Shown here: piece after piece, positions 44,596 to 62,315 of the stretch
How the letters are laid out: each line of letters starts with the position of its first letter
Position numbering within the stretch: the first letter of the stretch is position 1
Source: Ammoniphilus oxalaticus
GTDB taxonomy: Bacteria; Bacillota; Bacilli; Aneurinibacillales; RAOX-1
Direction: 5' to 3'
Assembly: GCF_003609605.1 (NCBI RefSeq)
Contig: NZ_MCHY01000007.1
Coordinates: forward strand, 124,001-188,000
Length of the DNA stretch: 64,000 bases
Program-made: the position numbers and the translations under genes
The notes under the pieces: generated by a model
Database searches by the model: none
Told to the model about the DNA's origin: nothing
The model's input: only the letters and a program-made list of their open reading frames with translations

Positions 44596-45096
44596 TTAGT
44601 GAACAGAAGGAGGGCCTTTACGCAAACCTTCGCCCATTCCTTTCATGAATTCAAGCGCTGTATATAACGTAGAATTCACATCTGAGTCCCGCAAGTTTTT
44701 GGTTAAGCCCCATAGACCGCTAGGTTTTCCTTCGTCTGTTGGGTCGCTTGTTGTTTTCTGTAAGCCATGCGCGACCCCATTTAAGATGCGGCTTAATTGT
44801 TCCGGTTCAATTTGACCTATAAATCTTGCTAAGCTCGTCACGTTTTTAACCGAGTGATAGACAGACTGTTGGTTTAATTGCTGGAGGGCCAGCATGCTAA
44901 CTTCCTCCCGCGTCTTCAATACCCCTTGTAAAATGTCCAATAGTCCAGCTTCATGCGCTTCCTTGAGGATGTCTAAAAAAACGATTAACGCATCCTTACT
45001 TTCCGCGACAGCCCCAAGCACCTCTTGGATATCTTGACTTTGCGCTTCCGCTGGATCTATCTGCTCCCTCTCGATGTTACGGATGGCTTTGGCCAT
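44596..45096 (-). CDS. DUF1641 protein, YrhD-like partner of formate dehydrogenase
   Basis: 166-aa helical protein of the DUF1641 family. In Bacillus the yrhD gene lies next to the formate dehydrogenase-like gene yrhE, as here. The GGAGG eight bases before ATG 45096 lies inside the end of the dehydrogenase gene, giving a 20-base overlap and coupled translation. The region VLKTREEVSMLALQQL and the ending MKGMGEGLRKG are family-like. The function is unknown; it may help anchor or mature the dehydrogenase. Confidence 0.85.
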   Translation of the reverse strand: MAKAIRNIEREQIDPAEAQSQDIQEVLGAVAESKDALIVFLDILKEAHEAGLLDILQGVLKTREEVSMLALQQLNQQSVYHSVKNVTSLARFIGQIEPEQLSRILNGVAHGLQKTTSDPTDEGKPSGLWGLTKNLRDSDVNSTLYTALEFMKGMGEGLRKGPPSVH

Positions 45097-48058
45097 GTTG
45101 TTCGCCTCCATTTTCTAACCATTCTGGGATCGGCGTGAAGTCTGCCCGTTTCCATTTGTCTTCCACTTTGATGCCGATTTGAGGGACACGGTTACCAAAA
45201 CGATGATTCACATCAGGCAAAGGTGGTTCTCCTTGCGCTTCGAGCACGACCATTTTCACGTTCATTTCCTTGTAATTTGGCGTATGGGTAATCCGATCAT
45301 GATAGCTACTCGTCAAACGGTTCACCATGTCTTCATCCGTTGTTGAGTTCATCGTTAGATATAGCTCATTCCCTTTTACTGTATCTGTTACATGAGCTCT
45401 CACTTCGACCTCTCCATATGGGGAAGTCAACTGAACTAAAGCTCCATCGTCAATCCCTCGTTGTTCAGCTAATTCCGGCGAAACCTCTAGCCACGGCTGA
45501 GATACTTTGTGAACAATCCCCGGCACACGGTACGTTAAATTCCCTTCATGGAAATGTTCAAGCAACCTTCCGTTGTTTAAGTGCAGATCATAATCTTCTC
45601 CAGGATCAAATGGCGGCGTCCAATCGACTGGGAACAAGCGGGCTTTGCCATCTGGAAAAGCAAATTTATCGGTGTAAAGCAGTTCAGTGTCTGTTCCATC
45701 GGCTTGAACTGGCCATAGTTGCGAGTTGAACCCTTCCAAACGTTCGTAGCTAACCCCCGCAAAAACAGGCGCCAACCGCGCGGCTTCGGCCATAATTTCG
45801 CTTGGATGCGTATAATTCCAATTGGCTCCGAGTTTGTTAGCGAGCAGTTGGAAAATTTCCCAATCGGGTTTCGACTCGCCCATCGGTTCTAACACACGGT
45901 AAAACCGTTGAATGCGTCGCTCCGTGTTCGTAAAGGTTCCCTCTTTTTCCAAACTCGGCGCGGCTGGCAACACAACATCCGCAAACTGAGCGGTTCTTGA
46001 AAAAAAGATGTCCTGGACAACAAAAAAGTCTAGTTTTTCAAACGCAGAGTCAACATGGTTGCTATTCGAGTCGACAATGGCCATTTCTTCTCCGAACAAA
46101 TACATCGCTTTGAGCTTGCCTTTATGAATCATCTCGACCATTTGATGGTTGTTCAATCCAGGCTTAGCGGGTAGCTCAACACCCCAAGCATGCCCGTATT
46201 TTTTCCGAACTTGCGCGTCTTCCACGGGCTCATATCCAGGCATCCAAGCAGGCATCGTGCCGAAATCGCAAGCGCCTTGAACGTTATTATGGCCACGCAG
46301 CGGATAAGCTCCAGCCCCTGGTTTACCGTAATTGCCCGTAACGAGCAACAAATTAGATATAGCTGTGCTCGTATCCGTCGCCCCGAGGTGTTGGGTAACC
46401 CCCATCCCCCATAAAATACAGACACCTTCTGCTTCGTGTACCATTTTAGCCAGTTGGATCAAGGTCTGTTGCTCAATTCCTGTCGTTTCTTCAGCGTATT
46501 CCAGCGTAAACTTTTCTAAAGATGCAACGTATTCTTCATATCCATTGACACGTTCTTCAATAAACGATTGCGCCCCCCACCCTTGATCAATGATATATTT
46601 GGTAATCGCATTCAATAACACCAAGTCTGTCGATGGTTTAGGGTGAATAAACAAATCCGCTCGTTCTGCAAGTTCATTCTTCCTTAAATCAACAACCGCT
46701 AATTTTTGCCCATGTAATTTATGAGCCCGTTTAATCCGAGTTGCCAACACGGGATGGGATTCCGCGGGATTCGCTCCAATCACGAGCACGAGACCAGCGG
46801 AGTAAATATCTTGAATCGTTCCAGAGTCCCCTCCGATTCCGACAGTTCGAATTAGACCAGCGGTAGCTGGGGACTGACAATATCGTGAACAGTTGTCCAC
46901 ATTATTTGTACCCATCACTGCGCGGGCCAACTTTTGAAACAAATAGTTCTCTTCATTCGTACACTTCGATGAGGCAATGTATCCGATGGAATCAGAACCC
47001 TCTCGTTCCTTGATTTCTGTTAACTTAGAGGCGATTAAATCAAGCGCCTCATCCCAGCTCGCCTCGACAAAGCGGTCTCCTTTTCGGATCAATGGCTTTG
47101 TTAACCGCTCCTCGCTGTTGACAAAATCCCAGCCAAATTTCCCTTTAATGCAAGTGGAAATTCCGTTGGCAGGCGCCTCCTGTTGCGGCTCGACTTTTAG
47201 TATTTTCCGATCTTTTGTCCAGATTTCAAAACTACAGCCAACCCCGCAATACGTACAGACTGTTTTTGTCCGCTTGATCCGAGCTTTTCTCATCGCTGCT
47301 TCCATCTCAGATATCACAAAGATTTCTTTGTAACCTGGCTCGATTTCTTTCGTGAGATCGATCATCGGCTCAAGCGCTTGTTTCGGTATCCCTGTCAAAT
47401 AACCGGCCTCACCGAGCATTGATTTTTCCATTAGAGCATTACAAGGACATACAGTGACACAATGCCCACACGATACGCAGGAGGATTCATCGATCGACAC
47501 ATCGTTATCCCAAATGACGCGGGGATGTTCGCGGTTCCAATCGATCGTTAATGTTTCGTTGACTTGTAAATCTTGACAAGCCTCCACACATAAACCACAT
47601 AAAATACATTGATCTGGTTCGTAACGATAGAATGGATGGGTATTGTCGGGAGGATACGGTTTCGGTTTAAATTCATACTGCTGATGCTCAATTTCGAAAT
47701 ATTCCGCTGTATTATGGACGGTACAATTTCCATTGTTGTTATCGCACACTGTGCAGTACAGTTCATGGCGCGTTAAAATGCGTTCCATTCCTTCACGTTG
47801 AGCCGCCTTCGCCTTGTCTGAAATAGAGCTGATTTCCATGCCCGGTTTAGCTTCAGTCGCGCACGAGCGAACCAGTTCCCCGTTTATTTCAACATAACAT
47901 GTATCACACGACTGGATTGCTCCCAATTGATCATGAAAACAAATACTTGGGATGTACAAGTCTTGTTCTCTTGCCGCCTCTAAAACCTTTTGACCCGGCT
48001 TTGCAAACAAATCTTGGTTATTGATCCGAATCGAAAATTGCTCCTGTCTCGATCCCAT
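45077..48058 (-). CDS. Formate dehydrogenase-like molybdopterin oxidoreductase, alpha subunit (Cys form)
   Basis: 993-aa cytoplasmic oxidoreductase of the YrhE/YjgC family. From the N-terminus: a 2Fe-2S ferredoxin-like domain (SCDTCYVEINGELVRSC), a histidine/cysteine cluster site (HELYCTVCDNNNGNC), two 4Fe-4S sites (CILCGLC, CVSCGHCVTVCPC), the catalytic-domain cluster (CTYCGVGCSFE) and the bis-MGD domain. The catalytic residue is an ordinary cysteine in CSRYCQSPATAG, where some formate dehydrogenases have Sec. ATG 48058 follows AAGGGAG. Oxidation of formate coupled to NAD is likely; no fdhD is in the window. Confidence 0.9.
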   Translation of the reverse strand: MGSRQEQFSIRINNQDLFAKPGQKVLEAAREQDLYIPSICFHDQLGAIQSCDTCYVEINGELVRSCATEAKPGMEISSISDKAKAAQREGMERILTRHELYCTVCDNNNGNCTVHNTAEYFEIEHQQYEFKPKPYPPDNTHPFYRYEPDQCILCGLCVEACQDLQVNETLTIDWNREHPRVIWDNDVSIDESSCVSCGHCVTVCPCNALMEKSMLGEAGYLTGIPKQALEPMIDLTKEIEPGYKEIFVISEMEAAMRKARIKRTKTVCTYCGVGCSFEIWTKDRKILKVEPQQEAPANGISTCIKGKFGWDFVNSEERLTKPLIRKGDRFVEASWDEALDLIASKLTEIKEREGSDSIGYIASSKCTNEENYLFQKLARAVMGTNNVDNCSRYCQSPATAGLIRTVGIGGDSGTIQDIYSAGLVLVIGANPAESHPVLATRIKRAHKLHGQKLAVVDLRKNELAERADLFIHPKPSTDLVLLNAITKYIIDQGWGAQSFIEERVNGYEEYVASLEKFTLEYAEETTGIEQQTLIQLAKMVHEAEGVCILWGMGVTQHLGATDTSTAISNLLLVTGNYGKPGAGAYPLRGHNNVQGACDFGTMPAWMPGYEPVEDAQVRKKYGHAWGVELPAKPGLNNHQMVEMIHKGKLKAMYLFGEEMAIVDSNSNHVDSAFEKLDFFVVQDIFFSRTAQFADVVLPAAPSLEKEGTFTNTERRIQRFYRVLEPMGESKPDWEIFQLLANKLGANWNYTHPSEIMAEAARLAPVFAGVSYERLEGFNSQLWPVQADGTDTELLYTDKFAFPDGKARLFPVDWTPPFDPGEDYDLHLNNGRLLEHFHEGNLTYRVPGIVHKVSQPWLEVSPELAEQRGIDDGALVQLTSPYGEVEVRAHVTDTVKGNELYLTMNSTTDEDMVNRLTSSYHDRITHTPNYKEMNVKMVVLEAQGEPPLPDVNHRFGNRVPQIGIKVEDKWKRADFTPIPEWLENGGEQHGQSHP

Positions 48059-48245
48059 TAAATCCAACTCCCTTCAACTTACCTGTACCTTATTTTGGTT
48101 CAGAGTTGGTATTTATATGTAAAAATTTTCAATTTAATTGAATAATAGGATGAGGATCGAGGGTGGTAAGCGAAAAGGGCAAAGGCGCGCAGAAAACCGA
48201 ACTGAATGAGCACTGAAATTCCCGCTATTTTCACTAGAACACTTC

Positions 48246-48614: not shown

Positions 48615-48639
48615 ATTTAAATATCTCTCCCTTGTAATG

Positions 48640-48674
48640 TAACAGCCGCGCAGAGGAACTCCGCGCGGCTGTTA
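48640..48674. terminator. Strong hairpin downstream of frnE
   Basis: TAACAGCCGCGC and GCGCGGCTGTTA form a perfect 12-bp stem; there is no clear T run on the minus side, so it may be a terminator or an mRNA 3' stabiliser. Confidence 0.55.
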
Positions 48675-48688
48675 ACATTTTCCTCTAT

Positions 48689-49414
48689 TTACGATTTATT
48701 ATTTGGATCGATCTGACAGCCTGTCTCATCACACGCGTCGCCAGAATGCTCATCATCGTTATTGACGATTGAAAGCGGCTGGCTTTCTTGCCATGCTTTG
48801 TCTAACGTTTTTAAAAAGAATTCGCTTGGATGGGCTCCAGAAATCCCATATTTCCGATCTATTACATAAAAAGGGACAGCGCGGACCCCCAACTCCTGAG
48901 CTTCTCGTTGTTCAGTTCGAACTTGTTCACTATACGCGGTACCATCTAGCATCGCGGCGATTTGCTTTGTGTCCAGTCCAACCTCTTCGCCAAGCTCCAA
49001 GAGTGTTTCTCGATCGCTCAGCCGTTTTCCTTCAATAAAGTAAGCGGAAAACAAACGCTCAACCATTTGCGGTTGCTTGCCTGACGCGGTCGCTAATAGC
49101 GTTAACCGATGGGCATCAAACGTATTAGCGGGAATCATCTTGTCAAACTGAAAATCAAGTCCTTCAGCTTGCGCTTGTTGGTTCATATCGGCGTACGTTT
49201 TTTTCGCCTGTTCCCGACTCATCCCATATTTCGTCGCTAGGTTATCATAAGCATCCATTGTCGCATCTTTTGGTTTTTCTGGGTCTAATTCAAAACTTTT
49301 GTAAGTAATTTTAACATGTTCGCTATGAGCAAACTCTTTTAACGCGGCCTCCAGCCGACGAGCGCCAATATAGCAAAACGGTCACATGTAATCAGACCAA
49401 ATTTCAATCTTCAT
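48689..49414 (-). CDS. FrnE/DsbA-family oxidoreductase with in-frame TGA (predicted selenoprotein)
   Basis: 241-aa DsbA-like (FrnE) thioredoxin-fold protein if the TGA at 49384-49382 is read as selenocysteine 11. ATG 49414 follows GGAGGTG; the N-terminus then reads MKIEIWSDYM-U-PFCYIGARRLE, aligning exactly with the FrnE opening (IEIWSD.VCPFCYIG), with Sec at the first, catalytic cysteine of CPFC and the second at Cys14. The conserved later segments are FELDPEKPKD, an SREQAKKTY helix and GVRAVPFYVIDRKYGISGAHP (the cis-Pro loop, shortened). A conventional call would begin at 49258 and lose the active site. The C-terminus has an extra cysteine pair DACDETGC. No signal peptide, so the protein is cytoplasmic. 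Confidence 0.9.
49346..49384 (-). promoter_or_regulatory. TGA codon and SECIS-like hairpin in frnE
   Basis: On the minus strand the TGA (49384-49382) is followed by GGC-G-CTC (49366-49360), an eight-base GTCGGCTG loop and GAG-GCC (49351-49346): six pairs with one bulged G. The loop starts 22 nt after the TGA, the same distance as in the ccdA-like gene. Confidence 0.6.
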
Positions 49415-49527
49415 TCCGACACCTCCATCTTTCATCTATTCTAACTTAGTTTACCAAAGCCATTCAACTCTATGGCGCCGACCGCGTCAGACTATGTACA
49501 TCGTATGAATTTGCTCCTCACTCGCGG

Positions 49528-50334
49528 CTATATCCGTTCAAACAATCCTAGTTCTCTAATTTGTTTGCCGTCGAGTCGGGCTAATTGATTTAGAAATTCA
49601 ATTTGGAAACTCCCTGGTCCTTCTGCGCCTTTCAGGCGCGCGGCCGTTTCGGCGGCTATACCATAACTTACAAGCGCCGCGATGGACGCAATTAATAAAT
49701 TGGATTCAACCGCGGCGAACGCGCCGATTACAGCGGTTACTAAGCAGCCGGTACCCGTCACCTTTGTCAGTAAAGCATTCCCATTTTTTACAGCATAGGT
49801 AACTTTTCCATCGCTAATAATGTCCGTTTCACCGGTAATGACGACAACTGTCTTCAGCGCTACTGCAGCTTTTTTGGCTAAATCGACGATATCTCCATCG
49901 CCCTCTCCAGCGTCAACCCCTTTAATCGCCCACTCCTGTCCAACGACATTAGCGACCTCAGCGGCATTTCCTCTAAGGATGGAAACGCGGGTATCTCGAA
50001 CGATTTTTCGAGCAGTATTTGTTCGATAAGGAGTTGCGCCCGCGCCGACGGGATCAAATAATAACGGAACACCCGCGCTATTCGCAGCTTGCCCCGCTAG
50101 TAACATCGCCTCTACTTCTGTTTCATTTAATGTGCCGATATTTAAAACGACAGCCCCTGCGATGCGCGCCATGTCGGCGACCTCTTGTTTCGCGTAGGCC
50201 ATCACAGGTGAGGCGCCTAAAGCTAATAAACCGTTTGCAGTAAAATTTGTGACGACGACATTAGTCATGCTGTGCACAAGTGGATTATGGTTACGAATTC
50301 GTTCTAATAGTTCAGCAATCTTATCGTTTTGCAT
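49528..50334 (-). CDS. thiM: Hydroxyethylthiazole kinase
   Basis: 268-aa kinase of the thiamine salvage pathway, phosphorylating 4-methyl-5-(2-hydroxyethyl)thiazole. The opening [20 protein letters not shown], the LRGNAAEVA segment, and the C-terminal [14 protein letters not shown] anion hole are all present. ATG 50334 has AAAGGGG ten bases upstream. It is alone; thiD and thiE are not adjacent and no TPP riboswitch is seen. Confidence 0.93.
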
Positions 50335-50410
50335 CGGTACCAATCCCCTTTATATATAGTTTACAGCCTATTCCTATTTTACTGCTACAGCATTTCGCTT
50401 GTCTAATGTA

Positions 50411-50606: not shown

Positions 50607-50724
50607 CGTCTTATTCACCCCTTTATTAGAATGCGTCGACCGTTAGTTACTTATCCGAACCTATTTTTCCTATCGGATTTCTGCTACAATTTGGTTACTA
50701 ACATTAAAAAAGGACGTGTTAATA

Positions 50725-51840
50725 ATGGACAATATTTATCTCGATTATAATGCGAGCACTCCAATTGACCAGGAAGTAGCCGAGGCGATGCAACCTTATC
50801 TGAGCGATTTTTTTGGCAATCCTTCAAGCAGCCATTGGGCGTCGAAACAAGCGGGATCTGCTATTCAACAAGCCCGAGCCCAAGTCGCTTCTTTATTAGG
50901 TTGCAGCTCTGATGAAATTATTTTCACTAGCGGCGGCAGCGAAGCGAATAATCACGCTCTGAAAGGAGTCTTTTATGCCCTGCAAGCGAAAGGAAAACAT
51001 ATCATTACGAGCAAGATCGAACATCCTGCGATCCTTGCCCCTTGTCATTTTCTTGAGAAATTGGGAGCCGAAGTAACGTATGTTGGCGTTGATGAATTTG
51101 GACAAGTGTCTGTCGAGGAAGTGAAGCGAGCGATTCGCGAAGATACAATTCTGATCTCGATTATGCACGCGAACAATGAGGTGGGAACGCTGCAACCGAT
51201 TGAAAAAATCTCCCATATCGCAAAAGAGCGTGGCATTTTGTTGCATACAGACGCGGCGCAATCCGTTGGAAAAGTTCCAACTCGCGTGGATGAACTTGGC
51301 GTGGATCTGCTAACGATTGCCGGTCATAAAATGTATGCTCCGAAAGGGGTTGGCGCCCTTTACATTCGCCAAGGGACTCCAATCGAGAGCTTTATCCATG
51401 GAGCGGGACATGAAAATGGCCGTCGAGCCGGCACGGAAAATGTGATGTTTATCGTCGGCTTAGGTAAAGCGTCCGCTCTCGCTGAACAAAACCTTGAGAA
51501 TCAAGGCGAAGGCCAGCTAAGGGATCACTTTGAACAGGCTTTGAAAAAGCATTTTGGAGAACGAGTAGTCATTAATGGGCATCCGACAGAACGCTTGCCA
51601 AACACAGCGAGTATAAGTTTTGTAGAACAAATAGGACAAGATATTTTGAAAAAGCTACCCGAAGTTGCTGCCTCAACAGGAGCCGCCTGTGACTCGGGAC
51701 AAGTCCAACTATCTTCGGTCCTAAAAGAGATGAAGGTGGAGCCTAGGGTTGGAATGGGAACGATCCGTTTCAGCCTTGGACGATATACGACATTAGAGCA
51801 AATTGAACATGTCGTTGAATCCTTAGTAAACACTATATAA
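50725..51840 (+). CDS. Cysteine desulfurase, NifS/IscS-like
   Basis: 371-aa PLP enzyme removing sulfur from cysteine as an enzyme-bound persulfide. The PLP lysine is in TIAGHKMYAPKG near residue 200, the His of HTDAAQSVGK contacts PLP, and the persulfide cysteine is in STGAACDSGQ near 322. This is not the SufS or YrvO sequence type and stands alone, so it is an auxiliary desulfurase; members of this superfamily can also release selenium from selenocysteine. ATG 50725 follows AAAGGA. A terminator follows. Confidence 0.9.
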   Translation: MDNIYLDYNASTPIDQEVAEAMQPYLSDFFGNPSSSHWASKQAGSAIQQARAQVASLLGCSSDEIIFTSGGSEANNHALKGVFYALQAKGKHIITSKIEHPAILAPCHFLEKLGAEVTYVGVDEFGQVSVEEVKRAIREDTILISIMHANNEVGTLQPIEKISHIAKERGILLHTDAAQSVGKVPTRVDELGVDLLTIAGHKMYAPKGVGALYIRQGTPIESFIHGAGHENGRRAGTENVMFIVGLGKASALAEQNLENQGEGQLRDHFEQALKKHFGERVVINGHPTERLPNTASISFVEQIGQDILKKLPEVAASTGAACDSGQVQLSSVLKEMKVEPRVGMGTIRFSLGRYTTLEQIEHVVESLVNTI

Positions 51841-52058: not shown

Positions 52059-52709
52059 ATGACTGAACATCTTTTAATCATATTTCCTCACCCCGATGAT
52101 GAAGCATTTAGTTGCGCGGGAATGGTCCGCTCCTATACGGAACGGGGAGTCCCAACGACTTATATTTGTTTGACATTAGGTGAAATGGGTCGCAATATGG
52201 GCAATCCTATTTTCGCCAATCGAGAGACGCTACCTTTGATTCGTAAGAAAGAATTAGAACAAGCTTGTGAGGCGATGGGTGTTAACGATCTGCGATTATG
52301 GGGGATGCGAGATAAAACGATTGAATTTGAAGTAGAGCTTGCTGATCAGCTTTATGACGCGCTGTTAGCGATAAAACCAACCAAAGTCATTAGTTTCTAT
52401 CCAGGTTTCAGCGTCCATCCTGATCATGATGCCTGCGCGGAGGCCGTTGTCAAAGCCATCCGAAAATTAGAACCTACGCAAAGGCCCATCTTTTATGGTG
52501 TCGCTTTTGCCGCAGACTCAATAGAAAAATTAGGTCGACCGTCTTTCATTGTTGACGTTTCTCGATATCGAGACGTGAAGATGGCTGTTTTAGAAGCCCA
52601 CGCGTCACAAAGCGAAGGAATGCTCAATCGTGTAACGAAATACAAAGAACCAGCCCTATTGAAACGACTAGAGGAAGAATGGTTCTGGGGTATAGATTTT
52701 AGCAAGTAA
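52059..52709 (+). CDS. bshB2: Bacillithiol biosynthesis deacetylase BshB2
   Basis: 216-aa zinc deacetylase of the PIG-L/LmbE family, converting GlcNAc-malate to GlcN-malate in bacillithiol synthesis. Zinc motif IFPHPDDEAFSCAG at residues 8-21, third ligand in the SVHPDHDACAE segment, and the YICLTLGEMGRNMGNP region that is nearly identical in the BshB2 (YojG) group as I remember it. AAGGAGG precedes ATG 52059. It connects with the YtxJ bacilliredoxin at 10837. Confidence 0.9.
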   Translation: MTEHLLIIFPHPDDEAFSCAGMVRSYTERGVPTTYICLTLGEMGRNMGNPIFANRETLPLIRKKELEQACEAMGVNDLRLWGMRDKTIEFEVELADQLYDALLAIKPTKVISFYPGFSVHPDHDACAEAVVKAIRKLEPTQRPIFYGVAFAADSIEKLGRPSFIVDVSRYRDVKMAVLEAHASQSEGMLNRVTKYKEPALLKRLEEEWFWGIDFSK

Positions 52710-52786: not shown

Positions 52787-53057
52787 AAACCGCGCGCCCA
52801 TGTCCGAGTAGAATCAACCGAATATTCCAGAAGAAAGTTCACTCAGATCAAGCTGCCTCGCAGCGCGCAACAATTTTCACTTAGGGCTGCTTTCTTCCGA
52901 ACCTGACCCGATTCATGAATTGTTGCCGCGCGAGACTTGATCGTCATCGGCGCTTTCATCCGTTTTCCTCACTTGATTCACCCTCGCATAGGAGTTCAAT
53001 CCCGCTGGACGGATTGCGGGTTACAGGGCACCGTCAGCTCCCCATCTAGCGCGGTTT
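52787..53057 (-). ncRNA. scr: Signal recognition particle RNA, large Bacillus type (scRNA)
   Basis: A 271-nt RNA on the minus strand. Its ends pair (AAACCGCGC with GCGCGGTTT). The 5' part contains GATGGGGAGCTGACGGTGCC and CCCTGTAACCCGCAATCC, matching the Alu domain of Bacillus scRNA; domain IV reads GGTCAGGTTCGGAAGAAAGC with the GGAA tetraloop and AGCAGCC after it. Compared with the common CC-GGAA-GG, this has TC-GGAA-GA, a compensatory pair change. The RNA with Ffh and the HBsu-like protein targets membrane and secreted proteins. It lies outside its usual dnaX neighbourhood; 53058-53119 holds only promoter-like AT sequence. Confidence 0.92.
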
Positions 53058-61904: not shown

Positions 61905-62160
61905 AAATAGAGCCCCCCATCCATAGCTTTCGCTAGGGACGAGAGGCTCTGTTTATCGCTCCCGCGGTACCACCCTAATTAGTACAGTGTACTCACTCAA
62001 ACAGTCCTTAACGCGGAAAACGGCAGACTCAGAATCATTAAAAATGGATGGATCATCTGCGGCTCTGAGGTAAGTTCCACGCCTTTCGGATTGACTCGCA
62101 CCATCCGTCAACTCTCTGAACCTGATCGGAACCGTGTACTAGTCCTCTTCTACGCCTTTG
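61905..62160 (-). promoter_or_regulatory. T-box leader of leuS with terminator
   Basis: On the minus strand the 3' part contains the T-box AATTAGGGTGGTACCGCGGG (61980-61961), then a terminator with AGAGCC and GGCTCT outer pairs (61952-61907) and a T-rich end. Stem I begins near AGAAGAGGACTAGTA and contains the AGAGAGTT and GGTGCGAG elements; the specifier loop GGAACTTACC puts a CTT leucine codon at 62074-62072. Uncharged tRNA-Leu should bind and prevent termination. Position 61781-61904 has no other feature. Confidence 0.92.
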
Positions 62161-62315
62161 CAAAATATAGTTCAAACGAATAGTTTCATTTTATGATTCA
62201 GATCAAAGGATGTCAATATCCTTTCAGAAGATATTCTATTTATCGCCATATTTATCATTCATTAAACATCAAAAATTCCGTATAACGCGCTTGTAACCTT
62301 GCCCGTCCACTTTTA

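Follow-up and report, generated by a model that had tools for sequence, protein, structure and literature searches.

A FrnE-type, DsbA-family oxidoreductase of Ammoniphilus oxalaticus with a predicted selenocysteine at its catalytic position

DsbA-like selenoproteins with a UXXC motif were reported from the Sargasso Sea in 2005, with assignment to COG2761 (PMC1088965), and they reappear in later surveys (PMC2398784, PMC9312934, PMC13188914). The named genomic examples that we encountered belong to Deltaproteobacteria and Clostridia (PMC1794560), or else they derive from marine metagenomes. The frnE gene of Deinococcus radiodurans (DR0659) was assigned to the same COG (PMC1978522). Its product (DR_0659; structures 5cnw and 5e59) has Cys in the active site and a C-terminal CX4C tail. 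This tail touches the active site in an adjacent molecule, shows a Cys244-Cys22 disulfide in crystals, and is required for full thioredoxin-reductase-linked activity (PMC8945050). We found no relevant literature naming FrnE as a selenoprotein, and the connection between the two bodies of work came through COG2761. Since Sec proteins of COG2761 were already reported in 2005, the frnE gene described here is a solid new example and not a new phenomenon.

We analysed a window of 64,000 nucleotides from the genome of Ammoniphilus oxalaticus (contig NZ_MCHY01000007.1, positions 124,001 to 188,000), in which frnE lies on the minus strand at 48689-49414. With its TGA read through, the gene encodes 241 amino acids, with Sec predicted at residue 11 in the motif U-P-F-C, and ends at a TAA stop (48691-48689). 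An earlier note, made from the sequence alone, had claimed a TGA at the first Cys of a CPFC motif and a ribosome binding site before the ATG at 49414, and the DNA reads accordingly: the TGA occupies 49384-49382 (minus strand, codon 11) and is followed by CCG TTT TGC TAT (P F C Y), and a GGAGGTG (49420-49426, minus strand) precedes the ATG by about 5 nt, with similar sites in relatives. The product is a full-length DsbA-family member (Pfam DSBA PF01323, 1.1e-46), and solved homologues span its whole length, the closest in sequence being SCO1869 of Streptomyces coelicolor (3gl5, 2.6e-56) and FrnE of D. radiodurans (5cnw, 5.5e-54, residues 2-238). The family alignment, which the note had proposed as a check, placed residue 11 at the first Cys of the CP(F/W)C motif of homologues, so that the active site typical of FrnE (COG2761, cd03024) is present as UPFC with the UGA in first position and a conserved frame beyond it. 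Against D. radiodurans FrnE, residue 11 corresponds to Cys22, Cys14 (TGC, 49373-49375, minus strand) to Cys25, and Cys228 and Cys233 to Cys239 and Cys244. Cys14, the resolving residue of the UxxC motif, and Pro181 are invariant in the alignment, and conservation runs from residue 1 on. The C-terminal CX4C motif, common but not universal in the FrnE family, is present here as CDETGC (residues 228-233; 48716-48733, minus strand).

The protein thus has the fold, subfamily, active-site position and CX4C tail of D. radiodurans FrnE (PMC8945050), and SCO1869, the closest solved structure, also carries a C-terminal CX4C, but both of these have an active-site Cys where Sec is predicted here. By family and COG assignment it matches form 1 of the DsbA-like selenoproteins, which combines PF01323 and COG2761 with Sec for the first Cys of CxxC and a predicted SECIS; unlike the examples of that form, the Bacilli branch considered here also has the C-terminal CX4C tail. 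We conclude, with a probability of roughly 0.94, that the gene codes for a cytoplasmic FrnE-type (COG2761, DsbA-family) oxidoreductase with a predicted Sec as nucleophile and SECIS-directed insertion. Only one FrnE match was found in the host genome, and no NCBIfam model scored above its cut-off for the product; automatic annotation may therefore miss the gene or cut it to a fragment without the active site.

The earlier note had made its reading depend on the presence of selC and selB in the genome. The host genome (3.3 Mb, 99.9% complete) contains selA (589 bits), selB (391 bits, above cut-off), a tRNA-Sec with anticodon UCA, and selD (429 bits), which itself carries an in-frame UGA. In this genome at least five genes have in-frame UGA codons at catalytic sites, those besides frnE (selD, two FdhA genes and a peroxiredoxin gene) belonging to classical selenoprotein families; together with the Sec machinery this answers the main objection to a selenoprotein here. 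In two of the four FdhA copies (L170, L171) the UGA falls precisely on the Sec site (DSCNRT-U-HAPS), and the hairpin after it has the loop GGUCU, as in E. coli fdhF. The FdhA gene in the window (45077-48067, minus strand) has Cys at the usual Sec site (DNCSRYCQSP), as does the L169 copy. A further predicted selenoprotein is a peroxiredoxin (L173; G000:C8 near 304301) whose peroxidatic residue is encoded by an in-frame UGA (TPV-U, the TxxU form). The selD gene (L049 1396-2475, minus strand) adjoins a divergent rhodanese-type gene (L049 2535-3602, plus strand), which by eye looks like the tRNA 2-selenouridine synthase gene selU/ybbB. Among the neighbours of frnE in the window, those checked stop at TAA or TAG.

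One alternative is that the UGA arose through faulty sequencing or assembly, or that a nonsense mutation of an ancestral TGC or TGT has made the gene a pseudogene. TGA is one base away from both codons, and the Cys-containing relatives do use TGC or TGT. In a first set of 101 genomes, FrnE homologues were present in 64, and 30 loci were read: codon 11 was TGA in six (the present genome, G001, G002, G003, G014 and G098) and TGC or TGT in 24. In a second set, the DNA pattern D-x-x-TGA-P-x-C-Y-x-G was scanned over the GTDB genome collection and returned at least 117 stretches, about 115 of which were FrnE homologues; L127 and L159 seem to have matched by chance. The matches listed came from Bacillota, Chloroflexota, Actinomycetota, Thermodesulfobacteriota, Myxococcota, Planctomycetota, Nitrospirota and Pseudomonadota. 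A quick tree grouped the 23 Bacilli UGA-FrnEs among the matches listed as a cluster (SH-aLRT 92), and the protein downstream of the UGA is conserved together with the SECIS. The base error that the earlier note had named as the other danger to its claim is thus contradicted by a TGA recurring in five related genomes and in some 115 FrnE genes from several phyla; the same TGA in so many independent genomes excludes an error or pseudogene for practical purposes, and we leave that explanation next to no probability. With the machinery present and the codon recurrent, the note's claim of Sec at the catalytic position is supported.

The UGA codon was also accompanied by selenium genes. In the first set, selA was found in 6/6 UGA genomes versus 3/24 genomes with Cys-FrnE (Fisher p = 1.4e-4, a value that overstates independence because the compared sequences are related). 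In the second set, 18 of 19 further UGA-FrnE genomes had selA, the exception being a genome of 1.8 Mb.

The SECIS of E. coli fdhF is a short hairpin downstream of the UGA with a bulged U and a G in its apical loop. The supported bacterial SECIS hairpin of frnE, CG-(U bulge)-CGGC[UGGAG]GCCG-CG (49360-49343, minus strand), resembles it in the bulged U and the loop G, but its loop UGGAG lies farther from the UGA, after 28 nt. It consists of four core pairs, the bulge and two further pairs. The four core pairs were formed in 25/25 UGA genes from Bacilli versus 3/24 Cys genes (p = 5e-11, inflated likewise by the relatedness of the sequences), and the loop read UGGA(G/A/U) in all 25. Two-sided compensatory changes were seen, one pair going from G-C to A-U and another from U-A to G-C, and the outer pairs varied between subclades. 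Slid controls also scored well below the observed value, and the column shuffles used in this test leave the relatedness of the sequences in place. When the region was shuffled among synonymous codons, the UGA genes ranked close to the most stable end (median p 0.003), unlike the Cys genes (median 0.40). The hairpin agrees with the bSECIS model (PMC13188914) in the size of its loop, in having a G at one of the loop's first two positions, and in its 28-nt spacing. The energy of the 18-nt element is -7.3 kcal/mol here and down to -10.2 in relatives, against a quoted bSECIS cut-off of -7.5 (PMC13188914).

The hairpin drawn in the earlier note was a different one, GGC-G-CUC[GUCGGCUG]GAG-GCC (49366-49346, minus strand). 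It can form, with an energy of -7.6 kcal/mol, but relatives have lost most of its pairing: across the 25 Bacilli UGA genes, the inner pairs occurred in 2-5 and the pair 17-35 in four. Single-sequence folding placed neither hairpin above chance (z = +1.2; synonymous shuffles p = 0.10), so comparison across relatives was used, and the pair-by-pair test led us to reject 49366-49346 as the conserved SECIS. On this comparison the SECIS as first drawn is probably wrong, and the conserved hairpin starts 6 nt further along.

UGA read-through is known in Bacillus-type bacteria, and the codon might accordingly be read without selenium, as Trp or by another near-cognate tRNA, or act as a regulatory stop, with a product that is mostly truncated or starts at Met53. 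A table-11 reading does offer a 189-aa frame from the internal ATG at 49258. This frame omits the active site, and no obvious ribosome site precedes its ATG. We rejected it as the true product; conservation starting at residue 1 points the same way, and the UGA tracks with selA and a conserved SECIS. We consider decoding without selenium very improbable, if slightly less so than a base error.

We infer Sec insertion from the computed position of the UGA, the protein family, the Sec machinery, the conserved SECIS and the co-occurrence with selA. As a ribosome arrives at UGA11 of the frnE mRNA, the hairpin that begins 21 nt downstream, with its bulged U and loop UGGAG, would recruit SelB-GTP with Sec-tRNA(UCA), and the Sec delivered by SelB would be inserted at residue 11. 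In catalysis, the Sec selenolate would attack substrate disulfides, and Cys14 would resolve the resulting mixed selenenylsulfide. The U-S bond would be re-reduced by a thioredoxin-type reductant acting with the flexible CX4C tail at the C-terminus. The faster redox catalysis that the earlier note predicted from Sec is reasonable chemistry. Reductase and isomerase activities may be expected by extrapolation from D. radiodurans FrnE, and the protein probably serves in oxidative, disulfide or metal stress.

The direction of catalysis and the part played by the tail are likewise presumed here, and even with Sec inserted the protein could serve chiefly for oxidation, isomerisation or the binding of metal or selenium, instead of acting as a reductase. 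The DsbA fold is compatible with such roles, and D. radiodurans FrnE has isomerase activity while its gene responds to cadmium (PMC8945050). The same protein is, however, cytoplasmic and has been proposed as a disulfide reductase whose CX4C tail regenerates the active site (PMC8945050), and the absence of a visible signal peptide in the present sequence suggests a cytoplasmic location here too. We regard a role other than reduction as unlikely, although a good deal more plausible than either a base error or selenium-free decoding, and prefer a Sec-containing disulfide reductase.

Among the matches listed, the CX4C tail was present in 21/23 Bacilli UGA-FrnEs versus 1/84 other UGA-FrnEs. The Bacilli UGA cluster is nested in a clade (support 100) of mostly tailed FrnEs, the rest of which are Cys forms and one UGA form (Candidatus Aquicultor). 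Such a placement speaks for a change from Cys to Sec in Bacilli, on an unrooted tree and with a sample skewed by the selection of the second set for UGA. By analogy with D. radiodurans, the tail suggests a relay that resolves the selenenylsulfide in the Bacilli Sec-FrnEs. We give even odds to the idea that these proteins form a distinct subtype, in which UxxC and a CX4C resolving tail would make up an intramolecular or intersubunit selenenylsulfide relay like that of high-Mr thioredoxin reductase, and which would have arisen by a Cys-to-Sec change inside a clade of tailed Cys-FrnEs. A limited literature search, and hence weak evidence, returned no description of a Bacilli Sec-FrnE subtype with a CX4C tail. 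With the present gene, a Bacillota-like genome gains a well-supported selenoprotein. Among Bacilli, Sec-FrnE is a common protein, present in Bacillus, Cytobacillus, Fictibacillus, Neobacillus and others, and it occurs also in other groups, Chloroflexota, Actinomycetota and Myxococcota among them. Within the one tailed clade, Sec and Cys orthologues form a natural pair for gauging the benefit of selenium in a disulfide reductase.

No operon partner of frnE was evident among its neighbours in the window. Upstream on the same strand lies thiM (49528-50343), separated by a gap of 113 nt; beyond it, on the other strand, follow a cysteine desulfurase gene (50716-51840) and bshB2 of bacillithiol synthesis (52059-52709). 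The desulfurase, 0.4 kb from thiM on the plus strand, is of NifS/IscS type, reaches the cut-off of no named NCBIfam subfamily, and could supply sulfur or selenium. Downstream of frnE on the same strand are a small unknown ORF and the Cys-type FdhA gene. Right after the frnE stop, a very stable hairpin (48636-48679, minus strand; about -32 kcal/mol for the stretch) lacks a clear T-run and is perhaps a terminator. Rfam matches on the minus strand of the window included a large bacterial SRP RNA (52790-53054) and a T-box leader (61932-62161).
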